Source: Flavobacterium buctense
Lineage (GTDB): Bacteria > Bacteroidota > Bacteroidia > Flavobacteriales > Flavobacteriaceae
Assembly: GCF_014486695.1 (NCBI RefSeq)
Contig: NZ_JACTAB010000003.1
Span: forward strand, 1-64,000
Reading direction: 5' to 3'
Length of the DNA stretch: 64,000 nucleotides
In this document: piece by piece, positions 2,305-64,000 of the stretch
Layout of the letters: the number at the start of each line of letters is the position of its first letter
Position numbering within the stretch: position 1 is the first letter of the stretch
Made by a program: the position numbers and the translations under genes
Notes under the pieces: generated by a model
Databases searched by the model: none
Told to the model about the DNA's origin: nothing
The model's input: only the letters and a program-made list of their open reading frames with translations

Positions 2305-3543
2305 ATGCAAACGTTAATCATCAACATAAAAGAATTATTACAAGTCAGAGAAACTAACGTTGACAAAGTTTCAGGCAGCGAAATGGCGATATTGCCTTCG
2401 ATAAAAAATGCCTTTCTTTTGATTGAAGATGATGCAATTGCAGCTTTTGGATCTATGACTGATTGTCCCAAAATCAATCCCGAAAAAACGATTGATGCCA
2501 TAGGAAAAATAGTGTTACCAAGTTGGTGCGACAGTCATACTCATATTGTTTATGCCGGTAATCGCGAACAAGAATTTGTCGATAGAATTAATGGCCTGAC
2601 TTATGAAGAAATTGCCAATCGCGGCGGCGGTATTTTAAATTCGGCCAAAAAACTCAACGAAACTTCCGAAGAAGAAATTTATAACCAATCCAAAAAACGT
2701 TTAGAAGAAGTTATTCAACAAGGCACCGGCGCAGTCGAAATCAAATCGGGTTACGGTTTGACGGTGGAAGGCGAATTGAAAATGTTGCGTGTCATTAAAA
2801 AATTGGCACAAAATTATCCGATTGCCATCAAATCAACTTTCCTTGGTGCGCACGCTTTTCCTATAGAGTTCAAAGAAAACCATGCTGCTTATATCGATTT
2901 AATTATCAATGAAATGTTGCCGAAAATTGCCGAAGAAAAACTAGCCGATTATATAGATGCTTTTTTAGAAACCGGTTATTTCTCTGTCGATGAAACCGAA
3001 CGCATCATGGAAGCCGGAAAACAATTCGGTTTGCGTTCTAAAATACATGTGAACCAATTCACAGCCATCAACGGCATTGCGGCTTGCGTAAAGCATAACG
3101 CACTTTCGGTAGACCATCTCGAAATTGTAACCGACGAAGATATTGAGGCTTTAAAAGACAGCGAAACGATTGCCGTTGCTTTGCCGAGTTGTTCTTATTT
3201 TATCAGTATTCCTTATACTCCGGCGAGAAAAATGTTGAATGCAGGTTTGCCATTGGCCTTAGCTTCCGATTTTAATCCGGGAACGACGCCTTCAGGCAAT
3301 ATGAATTTTGTGGTAGCGACGGCTTGTATCAAAATGAAAATGACCCCTGAAGAAGCTATCAATGCGGCGACTATCAATGGTGCCTACGCCATGGGATTGT
3401 CAAAAACACACGGAAGTATCACTATCGGTAAAAAAGCCAATCTGATTATTACTAAACCACTCAATTCTTTTTATGAATTGCCGTATGCTTTTGGTAGTAA
3501 TTTAATCGAACAAGTACTGCTCAACGGAAAAGTGATTGCATAA
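2305..3543 (+). CDS. hutI: Imidazolonepropionase
   Basis: Third step of histidine degradation: hydrolysis of 4-imidazolone-5-propanoate to N-formimino-L-glutamate. The amidohydrolase fold is shown by the metal-binding DSHTHIVYAG motif (H78 and H80 from this start), the HVNQF and VDHLE segments, and ASDFNPG with the catalytic aspartate near residue 322. An upstream in-frame ATG at 2248 would add 19 hydrophobic residues not expected in a cytosolic enzyme, so the ATG at 2305 is preferred; it gives 412 residues, the usual HutI length. A HutG-like enzyme lies 1 kb downstream on the same strand, but hutH and hutU are not in the window. Confidence 0.93.
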   Translation: MQTLIINIKELLQVRETNVDKVSGSEMAILPSIKNAFLLIEDDAIAAFGSMTDCPKINPEKTIDAIGKIVLPSWCDSHTHIVYAGNREQEFVDRINGLTYEEIANRGGGILNSAKKLNETSEEEIYNQSKKRLEEVIQQGTGAVEIKSGYGLTVEGELKMLRVIKKLAQNYPIAIKSTFLGAHAFPIEFKENHAAYIDLIINEMLPKIAEEKLADYIDAFLETGYFSVDETERIMEAGKQFGLRSKIHVNQFTAINGIAACVKHNALSVDHLEIVTDEDIEALKDSETIAVALPSCSYFISIPYTPARKMLNAGLPLALASDFNPGTTPSGNMNFVVATACIKMKMTPEEAINAATINGAYAMGLSKTHGSITIGKKANLIITKPLNSFYELPYAFGSNLIEQVLLNGKVIA

Positions 3544-3545
3544 AA

Positions 3546-3572
3546 AAAAGTCCTGATTGCTCAGGACTTTTT
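3546..3572. terminator. Bidirectional terminator between hutI and the 3596 gene
   Basis: Perfect 9-bp stem AAGTCCTGA/TCAGGACTT with TTGC loop, A-run on one side and T-run on the other. It lies between two convergent genes. Confidence 0.85.
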
Positions 3573-3595
3573 CTTTTCTATTAATTAATTATGGT

Positions 3596-4480
3596 TTATC
3601 TTAAAGAGAAACTACTTTTAGAAACCAATTCGCCTTTGTCAAATACATTCACAAAGTAAGTTCCTTTAGCAAAATCTTTCCCAGGTAATTGCTCTTTTAC
3701 ATCTACCGTTTTGTTTTCATATTTCACTGTAGTGGTGAAACTGTAAGTTAAGGAAGTATCGCCAAAAGAAATTGTGGCTTTATCACCCAACACGTTATTC
3801 TTTGCATCAATCACCTGAACATAGTAAACTTTGTCTCCTGATTTTGCAATTTTGTTCTCTGCAATGGTAAACCCAATTTGCAATACATCTGCTCTGCTGG
3901 CTTTGTCTGTTTCCACTTGTTTTCCTGAACTTCTTAGTTTGTAAGCCGCAGTTTTCAAATTGGTTACTGATAATTTTTGCCCTTTTTCAACCGTTTTAGC
4001 CAACTCTTCATTTTGACCTACCAATACTTGATTGTATTTTTTAGAATCTTCTAAAACCACATTGGTACTGTCTAAATCTGTGGTCAATTCTTGATTTTGG
4101 GCTTTCAAAACCTCTACTTCTTGCATAAGGTTTTTCATTTTTTGCTCCATTTGTTTGAATTGGTCTCTATACTTTCTCAAAGAAGCATTATCACCTTTGG
4201 CCGACTTCAATTCTGTCATCAGCTTAACCACTTTGTCTCTTTCAGCGATTAACTCGTCAGACATTGAAGTATTTTCAGCAATAGCCGCATCATATGTAGC
4301 TTTTAGTTCAGCCAAGTCTTTTAAAACATCTTCTTTCTCAGATTTTGTTTCAACGATTGTAGTTTCCAAAGCCTTCGCATCCGAAGTTAATTTGAAAATA
4401 TAAACCAAACTTCCTACTAATAAAATAGCTAAGATTGCTATGATTGCCTTAAGTTTCGAATTACCATTTTGATTTTCCAT
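3596..4480 (-). CDS. Membrane-anchored coiled-coil protein of unknown function
   Basis: 294 residues. A single membrane helix lies at about residues 10-29 (AIIAILAILLVGSLVYIF). A long heptad-rich coiled coil follows at roughly 33-170, rich in E, K, L and A. A C-terminal domain of about 120 residues looks beta-rich (KVYYVQVIDAKNN, TYFVNVFDKGEL). The likely topology is a short cytoplasmic N-terminus and a periplasmic coiled coil. I do not recognise a named family; such proteins are sometimes labelled chromosome-partitioning only because of the coiled coil, and nothing here supports that. It is transcribed convergently to hutI and shares its terminator. The neighbouring hut genes do not suggest a role. 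Confidence 0.8.
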   Translation of the reverse strand: MENQNGNSKLKAIIAILAILLVGSLVYIFKLTSDAKALETTIVETKSEKEDVLKDLAELKATYDAAIAENTSMSDELIAERDKVVKLMTELKSAKGDNASLRKYRDQFKQMEQKMKNLMQEVEVLKAQNQELTTDLDSTNVVLEDSKKYNQVLVGQNEELAKTVEKGQKLSVTNLKTAAYKLRSSGKQVETDKASRADVLQIGFTIAENKIAKSGDKVYYVQVIDAKNNVLGDKATISFGDTSLTYSFTTTVKYENKTVDVKEQLPGKDFAKGTYFVNVFDKGELVSKSSFSLR

Positions 4481-4562
4481 AAATTATAAATTTTATTTTA
4501 ACAAAAGTAACAATATAAGTAATAATATTTATTATAGTAACGTTAAATAAACAATTAAATTA

Positions 4563-4570
4563 TATTTTTG
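4563..4570 (+). promoter_or_regulatory. Candidate -7 box for the HutG-like gene
   Basis: TATTTTTG matches the Bacteroidota -7 consensus TAnnTTTG, 17 bases before the ATG at 4587. No clear -33 TTTG element at proper spacing was seen. Confidence 0.4.
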
Positions 4571-4586
4571 AGCAAATATTCTTCTA

Positions 4587-5624
4587 ATGGAAAGACTAAT
4601 TCCTTTCTCTGTAAATGATTTGGCAAAGGTTACCAACCACCGTAGTGGCGAAATAAAATTTGGCGAAAAAATGTTAACCATTCCCAAAGGTGAAAATTAT
4701 GTCGATTTTTTGAAAAGATGCGAGGCCAAATATGTCCTAGTCGGAATTCCCGAAGACGTAGGTGTTCGTGCCAATTTTGGTCGTCCCGGAGCCGCTTCGG
4801 CTTGGCAAAGCGCTATCAGTAGTATTGCCAATATTCAGCACAATCGTTTTTGCAAAGGCAGTCAAATTGTAGTATTGGGGAAACTTGATGCTTCGGCAGA
4901 AATGGAAGAAGCCAAAGACCTTGACTTTCATAAAACCGCCGACCGAAAACTATTAAGCACACTGGTTGAAAAAATAGACAAAGAAGTGGTTCACATTGTT
5001 ACCACTATAATCAAATGCGGCAAAACCCCTATCATCATTGGTGGCGGCCACAACAATGCTTACGGAAATATCAAAGGAACGGCTTTAGGATTGGGCAAAC
5101 CCATCAATGCAGTCAATTTTGATGCGCACTCCGATTTCAGAATTCTTGAAGGAAGACACAGTGGTAATGGCTTTTCTTATGCTTATGAAGAAGGCTTCTT
5201 GAAGAAGTATTTCATCTTTGGTTTACACGAAAACTACACTTCCAAAAATGTGATTGATATTTTGAAAAAGATGGAAGACCGCGTCAACTACAATACATAT
5301 GATGAAATAAAGGTACGCCAACAAAAAAACTTCCAGCAAGAGTTGAATACCGCTTATGATTTCATCAAAAACGATGCTTACGGTATTGAAATTGATTTAG
5401 ACGCTTTACCCAACATTGCCAGCAGCGCTATGACCATGAGCGGTTTTTCGATTGAAGAATTGCGTCAGTTTGTATCGTTCTTCGGCAAAAATAAAAATGC
5501 TTCTTATATCCACATTTGCGAAGGCGCACCCGATTTAGGCGAAGAAAAAAACAACCATCTTATCGGTAAATTGATTGGTTATTTGGTGACCGATTTTATC
5601 AAGTCGAGAAAGGAATTGATATAA
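4587..5624 (+). CDS. hutG: Arginase-family hydrolase, probable formimidoylglutamase
   Basis: Binuclear-manganese ureohydrolase. With hutI nearby it most likely splits N-formimino-L-glutamate into glutamate and formamide. Metal ligands seen: NFDAHSDF (D179, H181, D183) and EIDLDAL (D270, D272). The first ligand motif, usually GGDHS, is GGGHNN here with the histidine kept (H155), a divergence from textbook arginases. It has 345 residues, within the family range. The start is supported by a TAnnTTTG box 17 bases upstream. The specificity call rests on context; agmatinase-like or other ureohydrolase activity is possible. Confidence 0.75.
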   Translation: MERLIPFSVNDLAKVTNHRSGEIKFGEKMLTIPKGENYVDFLKRCEAKYVLVGIPEDVGVRANFGRPGAASAWQSAISSIANIQHNRFCKGSQIVVLGKLDASAEMEEAKDLDFHKTADRKLLSTLVEKIDKEVVHIVTTIIKCGKTPIIIGGGHNNAYGNIKGTALGLGKPINAVNFDAHSDFRILEGRHSGNGFSYAYEEGFLKKYFIFGLHENYTSKNVIDILKKMEDRVNYNTYDEIKVRQQKNFQQELNTAYDFIKNDAYGIEIDLDALPNIASSAMTMSGFSIEELRQFVSFFGKNKNASYIHICEGAPDLGEEKNNHLIGKLIGYLVTDFIKSRKELI

Positions 5625-5735
5625 TTACGAATTTGAAATTACGAATTACGAATTTAATCCAGAAACTGCAGCTCATTTGCCTTTCACTGAAATCCTACAA
5701 TTCGTAATTGATAATTCATAATTCGTAATTAATTA
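5625..5735. repeat. Short degenerate direct and inverted AATTACGAATT repeats
   Basis: The gap holds several copies of ATTACGAATT-like words at about 5630-5655. The reverse complement AATTCGTAATT recurs at about 5698-5733, giving a large imperfect dyad. It is one of several such intergenic patches in the window. Confidence 0.55.
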
Positions 5736-5739
5736 ACCT

Positions 5740-5747
5740 TATCTTTG
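5740..5747 (+). promoter_or_regulatory. Candidate -7 box for the DEAD-box helicase
   Basis: TATCTTTG is an exact match to TAnnTTTG, 33 bases before the ATG at 5780. Confidence 0.45.
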
Positions 5748-5779
5748 CTTCGGCTTACACTTAATCGTAAGCAAATTTT

Positions 5780-7033
5780 ATGTTATTCGAAGATTTATCA
5801 TTATCCAATAGTATTCAAAGAGCCGTCTTTGAAGAAGGATATACCAGCCCTACACCTATTCAAGAAAAGGCGATTCCCTTTATTTTAGCCGGGAAAGACT
5901 TGGTAGGTTGTGCCCAAACCGGCACAGGGAAAACAGCAGCTTTTGCCATACCTATTATACACAACCTACACAGAATGGTAGGTTCGTCTAAAAAGACGAA
6001 ACAAATTCGTTGCCTTGTCGTTACGCCAACTCGTGAGTTAGCCGTACAAATCGGGGAAAGTTTTGACACTTACGGAAAGTATACCAACTTGAGACAATTA
6101 ACCATTTTTGGCGGTGTTTCACAAGTGCCGCAAGTGGACCAATTGAAGAAAGGCGTTGACATTTTAATTGCCACTCCGGGAAGATTATTGGATTTACACA
6201 AACAAGGTTTTATCGATTTCGACCATTTGCATTATTTGGTTTTAGACGAATCCGATTTGATGCTCGATATGGGTTTTATCAATGATGTTAGAAAGATTGT
6301 GAAATTGGTGCCAACCAATAGACAAACGTTATTATTTTCGGCAACGATGCCAATGGCGATTCGAGAACTAGCCGATACTTTTTTAAACCAACCCGAATAT
6401 GTTTCAGTGACTCCGGTTTCTTCTACGGCAGAAATTATAGAGCAGCAAATTTATTTTGTAGACAAATCAGACAAACGTGGTTTGTTATACCACTTAATAC
6501 GCAATGAGAACTTGAGTAATGTTTTGGTTTTTGTTCGTACCAAACACGGTGCCGATAATGTCGTTAAAGCCTTAAAAAAGCATGGTGTCAATGCAGAAGC
6601 CATACACGGAGACAAATCGCAAACCGCTCGTCAAAGGGTTTTAGACAATTTTAAAAATAAAGAAATCACGGTATTAGTAGCAACAGATATTGCCGCTCGT
6701 GGGATTGATATTGAAAGTTTGCCTTATGTAATCAACTTTGATTTACCAAACATTCCTGAAACTTACGTTCACCGTATCGGTAGAACCGGTCGTGCGGGAA
6801 ATGGTGGGATATCGATTTCTTTCTGCGGAAAAGACGAAGAACCTTATTGGAAAGACATTCAGAAACTAATCAAGGTCAATGTAAAAACCATCAAAGACCA
6901 TCCATTTCCTTGGAAAGACGAAATACCTAATCCGGATGCCAAACCTGATTTAAGAAATAAAAAGAAACCCGAAGGAACTCCTAATTCCAGAAAATCGGAA
7001 GCTTCTAAGAAAAATAAAAAGCGTTGGTATTAA
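5780..7033 (+). CDS. DEAD-box ATP-dependent RNA helicase (RhlE-like), with DESD motif II
   Basis: ATP-driven remodelling of RNA duplexes or RNPs, probably in ribosome assembly or RNA decay. Motifs in order: Q-motif PTPIQEKAIP, motif I AQTGTGKTAAF, GG and TPTRELAVQ, motif II at residues 156-159, SAT motif III, and in the second RecA domain ATDIAARGID and HRIGRTGRAG. Motif II reads DESD instead of DEAD; the Mg/ATP-coordinating D and E are intact, so the enzyme should still work. The basic C-terminal tail (about 375-417, many K, R, N) is typical of RhlE-type RNA-binding extensions. The last four bases overlap the convergent kinase gene. Confidence 0.93.
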   Translation: MLFEDLSLSNSIQRAVFEEGYTSPTPIQEKAIPFILAGKDLVGCAQTGTGKTAAFAIPIIHNLHRMVGSSKKTKQIRCLVVTPTRELAVQIGESFDTYGKYTNLRQLTIFGGVSQVPQVDQLKKGVDILIATPGRLLDLHKQGFIDFDHLHYLVLDESDLMLDMGFINDVRKIVKLVPTNRQTLLFSATMPMAIRELADTFLNQPEYVSVTPVSSTAEIIEQQIYFVDKSDKRGLLYHLIRNENLSNVLVFVRTKHGADNVVKALKKHGVNAEAIHGDKSQTARQRVLDNFKNKEITVLVATDIAARGIDIESLPYVINFDLPNIPETYVHRIGRTGRAGNGGISISFCGKDEEPYWKDIQKLIKVNVKTIKDHPFPWKDEIPNPDAKPDLRNKKKPEGTPNSRKSEASKKNKKRWY

Positions 7034-11380: not shown

Positions 11381-12661
11381 CTAATTACTTTTATAGATTA
11401 CTCCTTCTTTCATTACAAAAACTACTTTGAGTACTGTATTAATATCTTGAGTTGGGTCAAGTTCTGTCGCAATAATATCCGCTAAAAATCCAGGTTCAAT
11501 AACTCCGATTTGTTTTTCCATATCTAATAGCATTGCATTGGTTACTGTTGCTGATTGGATGGCTTTCATGATTGGCATTCCTGCTTCGACCATATAGATA
11601 AACTCTTTGGCATTTTGACCGTGTTCAAAAACTCCGGCATCGGTGCCAAAAGCGATAGGAACACCTCTTTTGTATGCTTTACCAAAAGTTGCTTGAATTC
11701 TTGGTCCAATAGCCAAAGCTTTAGGAACGACAATAGCCGGATAGTAGTTTTCTTTTTTGGCATTGTTTTCCACTTCTTTTCCTGCAGTTATGGTTGGCAC
11801 CAAATAAGCATTGTTTTTTATCATTAAATCCATAGTAGCTTCGCTCATTTCAGTTCCGTGTTCAATGGTTTTTACACCCGATTTTACGGCACGTTGCATA
11901 CCTTCATCGCCATGAGCATGAGCAGCAACTTTCATTCCGTAATCTTTCGCTGTACTTACTATCGCAGCTATCTCTTCTTCTGTAAATTGTGGATTGGATC
12001 CACTTTTAGCCATACTTAAAACACCACCAGTCGCTGTAATTTTAATCCAATCGGCTCCATTTTTATAGCGTTGGCGTACAGCTTGCTTAGCATCCTCAAC
12101 ACCGTTTACGACTCCTTCATTTGGACCGGGATTACCCATTAAATCTTTGCGGTAACCGCTGGTTGGATCAGCATGACCACCTGTTGAAGCCAAAGCTTTT
12201 TCGGCAGTGAATATTCTTGGGCCAATAATTTTGCCTCTATTGATTGCATTTCGCAAGGAAACATTAACACCGCTTCCACCCAAATCTCTGACGGTCGTAA
12301 ATCCGGCCATTAAAGTCGTTTTGGCCAAACCTTCCGCATTATAAGCCACATCGGCTTCATTTAACGTGAACTCTTCCAAATAAGCGGTCGGACTGGTTTC
12401 CCCTTCCAAATGCACGTGCATGTCAATCCAGCCCGGCATTACAGTTTTGGTTTTTAAATCGATTACTTTAGAGCTGACCGTAGTTGGATTGAGAAATCCG
12501 TCTTCAACACTTGAAATGGTTTTACCCGAAACAATGATGGTTTTATTAGATAGTACTTTGCCATTTTTGGTGTCGATAAGTTTACCGCAATGGATATAAG
12601 TCTCTTGGGCAAATAGCACTGAACTAATTAATAGCGAAGCGTAGAGAAATAGTTTTTTCAT
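11381..12661 (-). CDS. Secreted amidohydrolase (imidazolonepropionase-like / dipeptidase-like)
   Basis: Exported metal-dependent hydrolase. The N-terminal signal peptide (MKKLFLYASLLISSVLFAQ) predicts periplasmic location. Amidohydrolase motifs: GWIDMHVHLEGE (H82, H84), KITATGGVLS with the bridging lysine, AAHAHGDEG, IEHGTEM and the catalytic aspartate in FGTDAGVF. At 426 residues it fits the subgroup often annotated as Xaa-Pro dipeptidase or imidazolonepropionase-like, where substrates are commonly acyl-amino acids or Xaa-Pro dipeptides. It differs from HutI by having a signal peptide, so it is not a second histidine-pathway enzyme. Substrate unknown. Confidence 0.88.
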   Translation of the reverse strand: MKKLFLYASLLISSVLFAQETYIHCGKLIDTKNGKVLSNKTIIVSGKTISSVEDGFLNPTTVSSKVIDLKTKTVMPGWIDMHVHLEGETSPTAYLEEFTLNEADVAYNAEGLAKTTLMAGFTTVRDLGGSGVNVSLRNAINRGKIIGPRIFTAEKALASTGGHADPTSGYRKDLMGNPGPNEGVVNGVEDAKQAVRQRYKNGADWIKITATGGVLSMAKSGSNPQFTEEEIAAIVSTAKDYGMKVAAHAHGDEGMQRAVKSGVKTIEHGTEMSEATMDLMIKNNAYLVPTITAGKEVENNAKKENYYPAIVVPKALAIGPRIQATFGKAYKRGVPIAFGTDAGVFEHGQNAKEFIYMVEAGMPIMKAIQSATVTNAMLLDMEKQIGVIEPGFLADIIATELDPTQDINTVLKVVFVMKEGVIYKSN

Positions 12662-12707
12662 CAGAATAATATTAGACTGATAAAGATAATAATTTAAAAG
12701 GTATAAT

Positions 12708-13712
12708 CTATCTAAATATGCTTGTCAGCATTTCTTTGTATAAATCAGCTTCCTCAAGATTGGCCGCACCAACACCTTTCCCTTTGACATCAACATTACG
12801 TAATGTTGCTACAATGCTGCTTATTTTTTTCATAGGATAGTTTCTAGCGGCACCGATATAATCATTAACAAAATAGGGATTTACCTTTAAAACTCTAGCT
12901 ACATTAGTTGGGGATTTATCTTTTAAACCATGATACAGCAATAATGCTGAGAAAAAAGAAAACACTTGGGCATTAACTACAACCATTGGATTATCTTTTT
13001 GGTTTTGGGAAAAATAATTGGCTATCTGATAAGCTTTAAACTGATTGCCTTCACCAATAGCTTTTCGGAATTCAAACACGTTAAAATCTTTACTAAAACC
13101 AATATTTTCCTCAATATGATGTGGTGTAATGGCGCTGCCTTTGGGCAAAATGATTTCAAGCTTGGTTAATTCATTGGCAATCCGACTCAAATCATTACCT
13201 AAAAACGCCACCAACATAGCATTCGCTTTAGGTTCAATACTATAACCTCTGCCCTGCAAAACACGGGTTATCCATTGTCCGACTTGGTTTTCGTAGAGCT
13301 TTTTACTTTCGTAAACCAAACCCATTTTATCAATAGTTTTGACTAATTTTTTACGTTTATCAAGCGTTTTGTATTTATAAGCCATTACCAAAACCGTTGT
13401 AGGCTGCGGATTTAAAGCATACGATTCCAAATTTTCAATGGTTCTTGATAGATCTTGGGCTTCTTTCACAATTACCACTTGACGCTCCGCCATCATGGGA
13501 TAACGTTTAGCATTAGAGACAATATCTTCAATGGTAGTATCACGTCCGTAAAGTACCATTTGGTTGAAGCCTTTTTCTTCTTCTGTCAAAAGATTGTGCT
13601 CCAAATATTCTGTAATTCTATCAATATAATAGGGTTCTTCACCCATTAAAAAATAGATAGGTTTAACTTTTCCGGCTTTTATGTCGTTGATGATTTTTAC
13701 AACCTCATCCAT
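12708..13712 (-). CDS. holA: DNA polymerase III subunit delta
   Basis: Clamp-loader delta subunit, which opens the beta sliding clamp. 334 residues, usual length. The start MDEVVKIINDIKAGKVKPIYFLMGEEPYYID is characteristic, with the xxYFLMGEEPYxID core of domain I. Further segments such as QVVIVKEAQDL and the C-terminal collar (FSFFSALLLYHGL, NPYFVNDYIGAARNYP) fit HolA. The Walker A is degenerate, as expected because delta does not bind ATP. It is divergent from the HsdR_N-type gene at 13764, a neighbourhood common in this phylum. Confidence 0.93.
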   Translation of the reverse strand: MDEVVKIINDIKAGKVKPIYFLMGEEPYYIDRITEYLEHNLLTEEEKGFNQMVLYGRDTTIEDIVSNAKRYPMMAERQVVIVKEAQDLSRTIENLESYALNPQPTTVLVMAYKYKTLDKRKKLVKTIDKMGLVYESKKLYENQVGQWITRVLQGRGYSIEPKANAMLVAFLGNDLSRIANELTKLEIILPKGSAITPHHIEENIGFSKDFNVFEFRKAIGEGNQFKAYQIANYFSQNQKDNPMVVVNAQVFSFFSALLLYHGLKDKSPTNVARVLKVNPYFVNDYIGAARNYPMKKISSIVATLRNVDVKGKGVGAANLEEADLYKEMLTSIFR

Positions 13713-13763
13713 TTTTATGGCATTTTGAATTTTAATTTTTGAATTTTAAATTACATTTGCTTT

Positions 13764-14207
13764 ATGCAAAAACTAAATTTTCCTTCCTATTCGTTTCGCC
13801 TCAAAAATAGTGAAAATAAAGTGTCAATTTTTGATGAAATCAGGAAAAAATTTATCATTCTCACGCCTGAAGAATGGGTACGCCAACATACCGTTCAGTT
13901 TTTATTACAAGAAAAAAATTATCCGAAATCATACCTCAACGTTGAAAAATTAATTAAGATTAACGATATAAGTAAACGTTACGATATAGTTGTTTTTCAA
14001 CCCAATGGAGAAATATTTTTACTAATTGAATGCAAAGCACCTGAAGTAAGTATCACCCAAAATACATTTGACCAAATTGCTCGATACAACCTTAAACTCA
14101 ATGCAAAATACTTGATGGTAACCAATGGACTAAATCACTATTTTTGTCAAATGGACTTTGAGAAGGAGCAATATATTTTCTTAAAGGAGTTGCCCGCATT
14201 TATTTAA
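13764..14207 (+). CDS. HsdR_N-domain (PD-(D/E)XK-like) protein
   Basis: 147 residues matching only the N-terminal domain of type I restriction R subunits. The nuclease core is visible as YDIVVF (D74) and LLIECKAP (E89, K91), the D...ExK arrangement. There is no helicase domain and no HsdM or HsdS nearby, so it is not a restriction-modification system by itself. Its place beside holA is conserved in many Bacteroidota as far as I know, which suggests a housekeeping DNA-metabolism role. Start ATG at 13764 is 52 bases from the divergent holA start. Confidence 0.85.
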   Translation: MQKLNFPSYSFRLKNSENKVSIFDEIRKKFIILTPEEWVRQHTVQFLLQEKNYPKSYLNVEKLIKINDISKRYDIVVFQPNGEIFLLIECKAPEVSITQNTFDQIARYNLKLNAKYLMVTNGLNHYFCQMDFEKEQYIFLKELPAFI

Positions 14208-14227
14208 AATCTCTAGCATTATTAGCT

Positions 14228-15184
14228 ATGTTCAAAAAAAACTCGTTTATCATATTGTCCCTTTTTATACTAGTATCAACAGTTTCTTGCAAAAAGGAAA
14301 TAGATTTAAAATCTATGGATAAAAAAACGAATGAAACGTCTAAATCAGATACTATTTATTCTGAAGCCACTGTCGATACAACAACATCAGGCACCAAAGA
14401 AACCCTGTTACAAAAAGTAGACTACGCTATTTGGTCTATGGGAAATCTTGAGGAATATTTTCTAAACAAATTGTCAAAAGCTACCAGCAAAACCCAAGGC
14501 AACGAAATTTACGAGGAATACCTTGAAAATATGGGAAATCGCATTGAAAATTTTAACGAACTCGAAGCCGACTTCTTAGCGATTTATACCAACTACTACG
14601 AACACGAAAAAGACCAATATATTTTTCCCGATTCTTTACAACAAAATGTGGATTTGTTTAAAAACACAGAACTGGAGTTTTGGGAAATAGGAGAAGGTTT
14701 TGTTGAAATTCGATATAAACCCTATCATTATTACAATATTTTTAAAGGAAAAGTGACGGATGACTACGAGTACTTTTTAAAAAATGAAGCCAAAGAAAAT
14801 ACCGTTCTTTACAGCGCAGATGCCGGAATATTAATCAGTCCTAAAGATATTGGCGAAAGGGTACTGACTTGGGAAAAATTTATTATTCAATATCCGAAAA
14901 GTCCGTTATTAGACCAAGCTACTAAATTGTATCAGGAGTATTGTTATGATTACTTGATGGGCATGGAAAATACCAGAACTGTTGATTATTCCGAGGGAAG
15001 CTTAGAGTCTGAAAACAAAAAAGAATACAAACGCTTTATAAGTAAAAATCCCAATTCACGAACTACAAAAATCATCAAAGCTTTTTTAACACAAGTAGAG
15101 GCCAATCCGGATTATGAAGAACTCGACAAATGGGTAAAAAAAGAACTAAACATCAAACCGGTCATCATTCCGAATGAACCCTAA
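14228..15184 (+). CDS. Lipoprotein of unknown function
   Basis: 318 residues. A lipoprotein signal (SFIILSLFILVSTVSC) with cysteine near residue 21 and a charged KKEID start of the mature chain predicts a membrane-anchored periplasmic or surface lipoprotein. The mature part is acidic, aromatic-rich and mostly helical by appearance, without a recognised domain. It begins 20 bases after the HsdR_N-like gene and ends 12 bases before the glycosyltransferase start, so the three plus-strand genes look like one transcription unit. Confidence 0.8.
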   Translation: MFKKNSFIILSLFILVSTVSCKKEIDLKSMDKKTNETSKSDTIYSEATVDTTTSGTKETLLQKVDYAIWSMGNLEEYFLNKLSKATSKTQGNEIYEEYLENMGNRIENFNELEADFLAIYTNYYEHEKDQYIFPDSLQQNVDLFKNTELEFWEIGEGFVEIRYKPYHYYNIFKGKVTDDYEYFLKNEAKENTVLYSADAGILISPKDIGERVLTWEKFIIQYPKSPLLDQATKLYQEYCYDYLMGMENTRTVDYSEGSLESENKKEYKRFISKNPNSRTTKIIKAFLTQVEANPDYEELDKWVKKELNIKPVIIPNEP

Positions 15185-62595: not shown

Positions 62596-62645
62596 ATTTA
62601 CTTTGTCAACAAAAGTTTGCTAAATCTTAAAGTATTTTTCAAATA

Positions 62646-62667
62646 AAAACCGCCCAAAGGCGGTTTT
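62646..62667. terminator. Terminator hairpin at the edge of the acquired region
   Basis: AAAACCGCC/GGCGGTTTT perfect 9-bp stem with CAAA loop. It could end the HEPN gene (plus) or the truncated minus-strand remnant. Confidence 0.8.
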
Positions 62668-62673
62668 CCCATA

Positions 62674-62757
62674 TTAATTATACATCTTCTTTCTCAACTC
62701 TTTTACCTTCTCATCATCCAAGTACTCATCAAAAGTCATATATCTATCAATACCCCC
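62674..62757 (-). pseudogene. C-terminal remnant of an unidentified gene
   Basis: The minus strand reads IDRYMTFDEYLDDEKVKELR followed by KKMYN and a stop at 62674, immediately before the terminator at 62646. The reading frame enters from a C-run (62753-62760) fused to REP copy A, so the body of the gene appears to have been lost or displaced. The parent family is not recognised. It may instead be a very short gene starting at the internal ATG. Confidence 0.45.
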
Positions 62758-62758
62758 C

Positions 62759-62818
62759 CCGCTACCGCGCGAATCCCTTCGCGTGGTTGTGTTTCCTACC
62801 CCCCGCTACCGCGCGAAT
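62759..62818. repeat. REP-like hairpin elements A (complete) and B (truncated)
   Basis: Copy A at 62759-62800: CCGCTACCGCGCGAAT, TCCC loop, TTCGCGTGG. Copy B at 62803-62818 stops at GCGCGAAT, directly upstream of the gene at 62832. The stem ACCGCGCGAA/TTCGCGTGGT pairs over 10 bp with one G-T pair. Remarkably GC-rich for this AT-rich genome. Confidence 0.9.
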
Positions 62819-62831
62819 ATTAAAATAAGAT

Positions 62832-63227
62832 ATGAAAAAAGAGAGTGAGGTTTATAGACTGAAAGAAGGTTATAGTCCCTTTATTTATAAAAGTGAAACT
62901 GGTCTTACCTATAGCTTTCCTGTTGCATCAGGTCATGTAGACAGGACTTTTGAATTCGTAATTTCAGAACTAGATTTAGACGCAATAAAATCAAGTGCAT
63001 ATAGGTTTAAGGCGCTATATTACATACTTTTCCATGAAGCTCAGTCGACTTTTGGGACAGGTCATCCAAAACCTCGGACATATACAGCTAAAGAATTTGA
63101 AGAGGTCAAAAATAAGGTGTTGTATATATCAGAGTTTGATTTACAGTTGTATATCAATGAATTTTCAGAAGGTAATAATCTAGCGGATTGTTACTTTCAA
63201 ATGTTTAGTGATAATGTATTTAAATAA
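62832..63227 (+). CDS. Small protein of unknown function lodged between REP elements
   Basis: 131 residues, no recognised family (MKKESEVYRLKEGYSPFIYK; later YYILFHEAQSTFGTG and ISEFDLQLYINEFSEG). No signal peptide or membrane helix; a mixed alpha/beta soluble protein. The ATG is 14 bases after a REP element cut off in mid-hairpin, and a full REP array starts 19 bases after the stop, so the gene may be a recently inserted passenger. A second frame inside it is only a shadow. Confidence 0.6.
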   Translation: MKKESEVYRLKEGYSPFIYKSETGLTYSFPVASGHVDRTFEFVISELDLDAIKSSAYRFKALYYILFHEAQSTFGTGHPKPRTYTAKEFEEVKNKVLYISEFDLQLYINEFSEGNNLADCYFQMFSDNVFK

Positions 63228-63245
63228 AAATAAAATAACGACCCT

Positions 63246-63415
63246 CCGCTACCGCGCGAATCCCTTCGCGTGGTCATATTTCCTACCCACTCTCACGTAA
63301 TACTTAACACCGCTACCGCGCGAATCCCTTCGCGTGGTCATATTTCCTACCTCCGCTACCGCGCGAATCCCTTCGCGTGGTCATATTTCCTACCCACTCC
63401 CACGTAATACTTAAC
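63246..63415. repeat. REP-like hairpin array, copies C, D and E
   Basis: Units start at 63246, 63310 and 63353, each CCGCTACCGCGCGAATCCCT, TCGCGTGG and CATATTTCCTACC. C and E also share CACGTAATACTTAAC tails. It lies directly upstream of the REP-associated transposase, the expected substrate arrangement. Confidence 0.95.
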
Positions 63416-63436
63416 CTACTTCTAAAAAACTTTTAT

Positions 63437-63444
63437 TAGCTTTG
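63437..63444 (+). promoter_or_regulatory. Candidate -7 box of the RAYT gene
   Basis: TAGCTTTG matches TAnnTTTG, 15 bases before the ATG at 63459. Confidence 0.4.
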
Positions 63445-63458
63445 GTAAAAAGAACAGT

Positions 63459-64000
63459 ATGAGCAGGAATTACAAGTTTCATAATCCTGAGGGATTGTAT
63501 TTTGTCAGTTTTGCCGTTGTTGGCTGGTTAGATGTATTTACCAGAAATGAATACAAAGATTTACTTTTAGAAAGCTTAGAATTTTGTCAAAAAAGCAAAG
63601 GCATGGAAATACACTCTTGGTGTATTATGACCAATCATGTGCATTTAATTTTTAGAAGTACAGATAATCAAAAGCCTGAATTATTACTAGGCGATTTTAA
63701 AAGATTTACAAGCAGACGTATTGTAAAAGCCATCCAAGAAAATCCAAAAGAAAGCAGAAAGGAGTATTTGTTGGACTATTTTAAAAAAGAAGCCGCAAAG
63801 AGTTCAAATACAACTAATTTTCAATTTTGGCGACATGACAGCAGGCCAATAGAGTTGTGGAGTAATGAAGTCATTCAGCAAAAAATAGATTATATACATA
63901 ACAATCCGGTTGAAGAAGGTATTGTATTTAGACCTGAAGATTATAAATACAGTAGTGCTCCGGATTATGCCGGAGAAAAAGGGTTGTTGGATGGGGTTTA
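63459..64000 (+). CDS. REP-associated tyrosine transposase (RAYT, Y1 HUH), runs off the window
   Basis: Single-strand DNA transposase of the IS200/IS605-related Y1 type that recognises REP hairpins and spreads them. 180 codons are visible plus two bases (TA) that could begin a stop codon, so it may be nearly complete. Motifs: MTNHVHLIF with the HUH pair (H60, H62) and KIDYIHNNPVEEG with catalytic tyrosine Y145. RFTSRRI and FWRHDSRPIELW are typical RAYT segments. Three REP copies directly upstream and two more beyond the 62832 gene support the assignment. Confidence 0.93.
   Translation, partial: MSRNYKFHNPEGLYFVSFAVVGWLDVFTRNEYKDLLLESLEFCQKSKGMEIHSWCIMTNHVHLIFRSTDNQKPELLLGDFKRFTSRRIVKAIQENPKESRKEYLLDYFKKEAAKSSNTTNFQFWRHDSRPIELWSNEVIQQKIDYIHNNPVEEGIVFRPEDYKYSSAPDYAGEKGLLDGV

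Follow-up and report, generated by a model that had tools for sequence, protein, structure and literature searches.

A RAYT gene enclosed by inverted GCTV-footed hairpins in Flavobacterium buctense resembles a mobile unit

At the right edge of a 64,000-nucleotide stretch of Flavobacterium buctense DNA (referred to here as the window, which begins at the start of its contig), a series of hairpins precedes the gene of a Y1 HUH transposase of the RAYT family, the enzymes that accompany repetitive extragenic palindromes (REPs). The locus raises the question of whether such an enzyme copies only its hairpins or whether the gene and its hairpins travel together. In print, RAYTs are described as domesticated, or as giving no evidence of autonomous mobility, with movement of the RAYT gene itself left open (PMC6006769, PMC8049555). 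Our comparison of sequences suggests that the whole RAYT unit probably is, or recently was, a mobile single-strand element of about 0.7 kb.

The RAYT gene, encoding 188 amino acids, occupies 63459..64000 of the plus strand in the window and continues to contig position 64025. Its protein matches Pfam Y1_Tnp (PF01797) and scores 92.1 bits against the NCBIfam model REP_Tyr_transpos (NF047646; cut-off 80), while the IS200 model gave 29.9 bits, under its cut-off of 55. The motifs NHVH and YIHNNPV supply the HUH and Y---NP signatures, and residues H60, H62, Y145, N149 and P150 are invariant in 18 aligned sequences. The earlier note on this DNA, made from the letters alone, had read the gene as a Y1 HUH transposase with HVH and YIHNNPV motifs and the locus as a REP/RAYT module; both identifications stand, as the NCBIfam cut-off is passed and the hairpin accompanies RAYT relatives. 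The structure model is weak (pLDDT 58.8) and yielded no Foldseek match at E <=0.001; the best match, at E 0.034 with a probability of 0.99 and a TM score of 0.37-0.41, is 4er8, the structure of TnpA-REP with a REP hairpin. In the published classification, TnpA-Y1 subclass 2.6, which holds the Bertels group 5 sequences, is defined by NH[LIV]H, YIH[QN]NP, occurrence in Bacteroidetes and atypical flanking hairpins without a GT[AG]G foot (PMC6006769). The motifs, size, phylum and hairpins of our locus all agree with this subclass, the assignment being by motifs rather than by a subclass profile, and the protein has WR where the table of PMC6006769 gives WQ. The locus is thus a member of a known RAYT subclass, TnpA-Y1 2.6 or Bertels group 5.

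The RAYT unit extends over approximately 63351-64064, with bounds taken from a conserved position at -8 and the last 64 bases lying beyond the window. Its left end is a hairpin at 63353..63381 on the plus strand (copy E) and its right end, after the RAYT stop, is an inverted hairpin at contig 64034-64062 on the minus strand (copy F), outside the window. To characterize this arrangement more generally, we considered 81 RAYT loci, namely our own and the best 80 of 411 found in genome contigs. They come from 78 genomes, three of which gave two loci each, and the lineages covered in the phylum include Flavobacteriia and Bacteroidales. When hairpins were sought de novo, 68 of the 79 testable loci showed a matching pair in inverted orientation on either side of the RAYT gene, as compared to 12 of 79 over the same limit in the direct-orientation control, where some loci truly have direct copies. 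With a hairpin grammar allowing up to two substitutions per arm, a hairpin was found upstream in 78 of the 81 loci, downstream in 78 and on both sides in 75. The consensus of the ends reads C(CCC)GCTV followed by CCGCRCGA-loop-TCGYGTGG, with the foot GCTV present in 145 of 156 hairpins and conservation outside the stem dropping between 8 and 10 bases. At pair 5 of the stem, 87 of the 156 hairpins have A-T and 56 have G-C, that is, the stem covaries. Since 153 of the 156 hairpins carry a G.T wobble at pair 3, folding differs between the two strands; for our own sequence it gave -10.4 versus -8.3 kcal/mol. Between the foot base V and the outer positions -2 to -13 no link was seen, and the link with the base after the stem was only weak (116 hairpins). 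At three loci (L168, L169 and L173) the RAYT genes are apparently frameshifted, with hairpins still on both sides.

Hairpin type follows the RAYT tree. The pair-5 type requires 11 changes on this tree, where 200 shuffles averaged 24.4 and never fell below 18 (75 rows, as 6 had no clear pair-5 label), and the loop type requires 12, against a mean of 21.4 and a minimum of 17 (200 shuffles of 80 rows, one having no loop label). It should be noted that the three frameshifted genes were translated straight through in this tree and sit on long branches. In a sister subfamily (54-57% identity), the stem is different, of the CGAGCG..CGCTCG type, while the foot is the same GCTV. Six of its loci were considered (L046-L048 and L050-L052, with L049 left out and L047 and L052 on the minus strand): an inverted pair stands above shuffles in five and looks alike by eye in the sixth, and the hairpin of our locus is absent from all six.

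Association between the hairpin and RAYT is also seen within the genus. RAYT homologues (E <=0.001) occur in 151 of 249 genus genomes and the hairpin, with three mismatches allowed, in 89 of 249, with the reversed control pattern found in 5 of 249. All 25 listed genomes in which a RAYT, or a fragment of one, reaches at least 65% identity carry the hairpin, as opposed to 64 of the 224 others (p = 6e-13); this figure should be read with the consideration that the 65% limit was set after seeing the list and that two of the 25 genomes were counted by fragments only. The absence of the hairpin from relatives with this transposase, which the earlier note had named as an outcome that would speak against its reading, is therefore not what was found. 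As the hairpin is present in 64 of the 224 other genomes, hairpins without this RAYT are common. Side by side with these results, RAYT genes are grouped in twos or threes within a few kb at G077:C19, G070:C22, G109:C1 and G234:C9; a hairpin-carrying segment occurs twice at L117 (G239; 3046-5835 and 11897-14685), about 8.85 kb apart and with the same order of open reading frames (ORFs); and hairpin pairs alternate with small genes at L103 (1-13001), L060, L104 and L109, with Rhs cores near L103, L060 and L109.

With regard to location, the unit is found, as a discrete segment with constant ends, at different sites, in the manner of an insertion sequence, when neighbours are taken as the two ORFs on each side. 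In this comparison of the 81 loci, 68 of which have ORFs on both sides, any of the two nearest ORFs per side is shared by only 20 of 3240 locus pairs, and on both sides by 2. Our unit and that of its nearest relative, L053 (from the same genome as L152), are 91.8% identical over 63355-64064, and homology stops at the hairpins on both sides. Near-identical copies appear in Chryseobacterium. In C. rhizoplanae, two units located 8 kb apart (L192 and L202) match at 98.8% identity along 672 bp that run from CCTYGCTA to TAGCGAGG, with flanks matching no better than shuffled sequence and no target duplication visible. In C. gwangjuense, two units on different contigs (L182 and L188) are 97.2% identical with unrelated flanks, their alignment extending about 35 bp beyond the left hairpin. 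Among 24 selected genomes, 19 have one copy and five have two (E <=1e-60); as most are single-copy and near-identical pairs are found in only two of the genomes, movement would be rare. Of 69 hairpins that have no RAYT core inside 1 kb, 5 are adjoined by a remnant of the RAYT N-terminus; in two further hairpin pairs (L065 and L109), a short RAYT start is recognizable by eye. On plasmids and phages, no relative exceeded 60% identity (6 plasmid records, 1 phage record).

The layout of the unit can be written as 5'-C(CCC)GCTV-hairpin, leader, RAYT gene, inverted hairpin-BAGC(GGG)G-3'. In our reading, the hairpin with its GCTV foot would be bound by RAYT in single-stranded form, the strand being told apart by the G.T wobble, and cleavage and rejoining would take place close to the foot. 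In this way the complete unit, or short derivatives of it bounded by hairpins, would move without target duplication, with RAYT as the presumed mover. At our own locus, the left end was probably later copied in tandem, giving copies C, D and E and probably A and B, and one orphan ORF is found between the copies. A broader claim, on which we are evenly divided, is that the group 5 RAYTs of Bacteroidota are not domesticated. In this view, RAYT with its inverted GCTV hairpins makes up a single-strand transposon that is autonomous and still moving, passes from one genus to another and leaves behind derivatives bounded by hairpins; such an element may stand as a living intermediate between IS200/IS605 and REP/RAYT.

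The remaining hairpins of the F. buctense locus all lie on the plus strand. Copy A, at 62759..62787, consists of the foot GCTA and a stem-loop and is intact, while copy B, at 62803..62818, comprises 16 bases and is truncated at the loop. Copy C (63246..63274) is followed by the next copy after 64 bp and has a duplicate of the leader tail at 63294-63308, and copy D (63310..63338), the short form, is followed by the next copy after 43 bp. Five copies, one of them truncated, had been reported from the window, and these we recover. The single orientation given for them applies inside the window but not overall, as the sixth copy (F) is inverted. They were also placed directly upstream of the Y1 gene: all do precede it, although an ORF of 131 codons (62832..63227, plus strand) parts A and B from C, D and E. 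This ORF, an orphan and possibly a passenger, has no Pfam match at E <=1, no NCBIfam match at 0.001 and no homologue in the other 248 of the 249 genus genomes searched. The claim that C and E are long forms and D a short one also stands, the tail CACGTAATACTTAAC being present after the copies at 63246 and 63353 and absent after that at 63310. What was built on it, namely a BIME-like composite unit (bacterial interspersed mosaic element), is rejected: copies A-E are direct repeats rather than REPs of alternating orientation, and the tail is the start of RAYT's own leader, recognizable in L053, so that C, D and E are tandem copies of the 5' end of the unit. Copy C is the hairpin with 35 bp of the leader and copy D the hairpin with 13 bp, the two repeating the initial 64 and 43 bp of the unit, respectively. 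A row of seven hairpin copies likewise stands before the RAYT of relative L062.

Elsewhere in the genome (a 2.92 Mb draft of 50 contigs), no further copy of the 25-base hairpin pattern was found at up to 3 mismatches, the chance expectation for this pattern being 0.00 in 100 dinucleotide shuffles of the window. A looser 20-base pattern added one site with 2 mismatches (C11:414820-414841), and the reversed control gave one match as well. As all five intact copies are at the RAYT locus and the extra site is at control level, the hairpin is not a dispersed REP family in this genome, while in relatives it often is. Absence elsewhere in the genome, the other outcome that the earlier note had named as unfavourable to its reading, was thus indeed found. 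Its remark that this flavobacterial example has its own hairpin type is correct, although Bacteroidetes RAYTs with atypical hairpins are already in print as part of subclass 2.6 (PMC6006769). One other Y1 gene is found in the genome (C11:105708-106052), with a stronger Y1_Tnp match and different flanking repeats.

The hairpins are bordered on the left by a diverged direct duplicate (113 bp) of the 3' end of an ABC-F gene and its terminator (62645..62757, minus strand), which aligns locally to contig 65379-65499, some 2.7 kb to the right, and ends in the C run where copy A begins. The segment also matches ABC-F 3' ends of relatives, and an intact ABC-F gene is found at contig 65416-67035. In L006 (2234-3314), the RAYT unit and the ABC-F gene are separated by a SatD-family gene and a small ORF that has no convincing match in Pfam; L053 has no room for these two. 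Inheritance of RAYT in place beside ABC-F was considered and rejected, as among the 20 relatives listed ABC-F was recognized beside RAYT only in L053, where it lies at a different distance from RAYT than in our locus, with other flanks and with homology ending at the hairpins. Our locus and L053 may still descend from one old insertion near ABC-F that was rearranged afterwards.

Several points weigh against mobility of the unit and need to be considered when referring to the above. The proximity of both our locus and its nearest relative to ABC-F was missed by the two-ORF neighbour comparison. In the de novo test, 11 of 79 loci failed to show an inverted pair, L062 has same-strand copies on both sides of its RAYT, and adjoining copies are not always inverted. 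Only two of the five two-copy genomes hold near-identical pairs, our own genome has one unit and no dispersed copies, and the five RAYT remnants are spread over three genomes. Near-identical copies with differing flanks could also have arisen by gene conversion or by two acquisitions. Joining the flanks of 82 hairpin-bounded units and comparing them with all loci in the set gave no clean empty site, and a test for empty sites by ORFs gave nothing usable. One alternative is a classical REP/RAYT system, in which a domesticated, immobile RAYT copies hairpins only, while RAYT and hairpins relocate by homologous recombination or by horizontal transfer of larger segments. Such a system is suggested by the mostly single RAYT copy per genome, by the dispersed hairpin pairs in relatives, by the position of both our locus and L053 near ABC-F and by the picture given in print of RAYTs as genes in single copy that are passed on vertically and do not copy themselves (PMC8049555). 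Nonetheless, almost every pair of loci differs in its nearest neighbours, homology ends at the hairpins and two species carry two near-identical units per genome, and we therefore find the classical explanation unlikely, though deserving of some weight.

It could further be argued that the hairpins belong to a cassette-like system, bracketing and mobilizing passenger genes such as the 131-codon ORF, which does lie between hairpin copies; rows of hairpin pairs with small genes in L103, L060 and L104 would agree with this. Among the matches listed, an Rhs core is found no more than 5 kb from 12 of the 59 orphan hairpin clusters, where 0.8 would be expected, but 47 of the 59 do not lie near Rhs, our own genome has no Rhs core, and DDE transposases, with 7 of 80 clusters, are found near Rhs too. 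The difference between the two is not clear (p = 0.08), and an Rhs association specific to hairpins was accordingly rejected. As DDE transposases are also close to Rhs, Rhs loci may simply collect mobile DNA. These counts use the middle hairpin of each cluster, exclude 8 clusters with RAYT and leave aside rows from 5 of the 26 genomes together with the weakest Rhs rows; DDE rows less than 10 kb apart were merged, partly by hand, and the DDE figure carries no chance expectation. We hold a cassette-like system to be very improbable. Least of all would we expect the hairpins to be mainly RNA elements, that is, leaders or terminators regulating the RAYT gene or its neighbours. Where a locus has a match, a stable hairpin does stand ahead of the gene, at a distance of 11-240 bp that is mostly below 130 bp, yet there is no Rfam match, and a leader would not be expected to have paired ends in inverted orientation, to carry a conserved unpaired foot beyond its stem or to occur away from RAYT.

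A putative RayT insertion reported near abeS in Chryseobacterium (PMC11194056) hints at mobility of the unit as well. Among the matches listed, titles and abstract openings on RAYT with Bacteroidetes, Flavobacterium or Chryseobacterium, or on REPtron, do not describe the unit, figures, supplements and most subscription papers being outside this coverage. A subclass with defined terminal hairpins, recent near-identical copies and a hairpin that tracks its enzyme offers a direct system for testing unit mobility, and suits the study of the joint evolution of enzyme and hairpin specificity.

Among the known systems nearest to our unit is TnpA-Y1 subclass 2.6 (PMC6006769), with which it shares NHVH, YIHNNP, a size of about 180 amino acids, occurrence in Bacteroidetes and atypical flanking structures copied elsewhere in the genome. 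Unlike the subclass as published, the hairpin-to-hairpin unit looks mobile here, and the hairpin consensus is spelled out beyond the text of that paper, whose figures or supplements may show some of the hairpins. With the REPtrons and REPINs of E. coli and Pseudomonas (PMC6006769, PMC3116915, PMC8266576), it has in common a Y1 HUH enzyme, a 5' foot tetranucleotide on the hairpin and inverted pairs; it differs in the foot (GCTV rather than GTAG), in the lack of the hairpin from the rest of our genome and in that the inverted pair, at widely differing sites, encloses RAYT itself. TIRtrons (TIRYT, mostly subclass 2.1; PMC3733652) also place a RAYT-like gene between terminal inverted repeats, but belong to another subclass with other motifs and have GGGGWSAS repeats rather than GCTV-footed hairpins. 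IS200/IS605 elements (PMC2817692, PMC8266576) resemble the unit in their Y1 transposase, hairpin ends, a foot at the place of the guide sequence and the lack of a visible target duplication, while they have no terminal inverted repeats and carry Y---Q, as opposed to the inverted ends and Y---NP found here. What is new is that, in subclass 2.6, a RAYT gene with inverted GCTV hairpins looks like a mobile unit.
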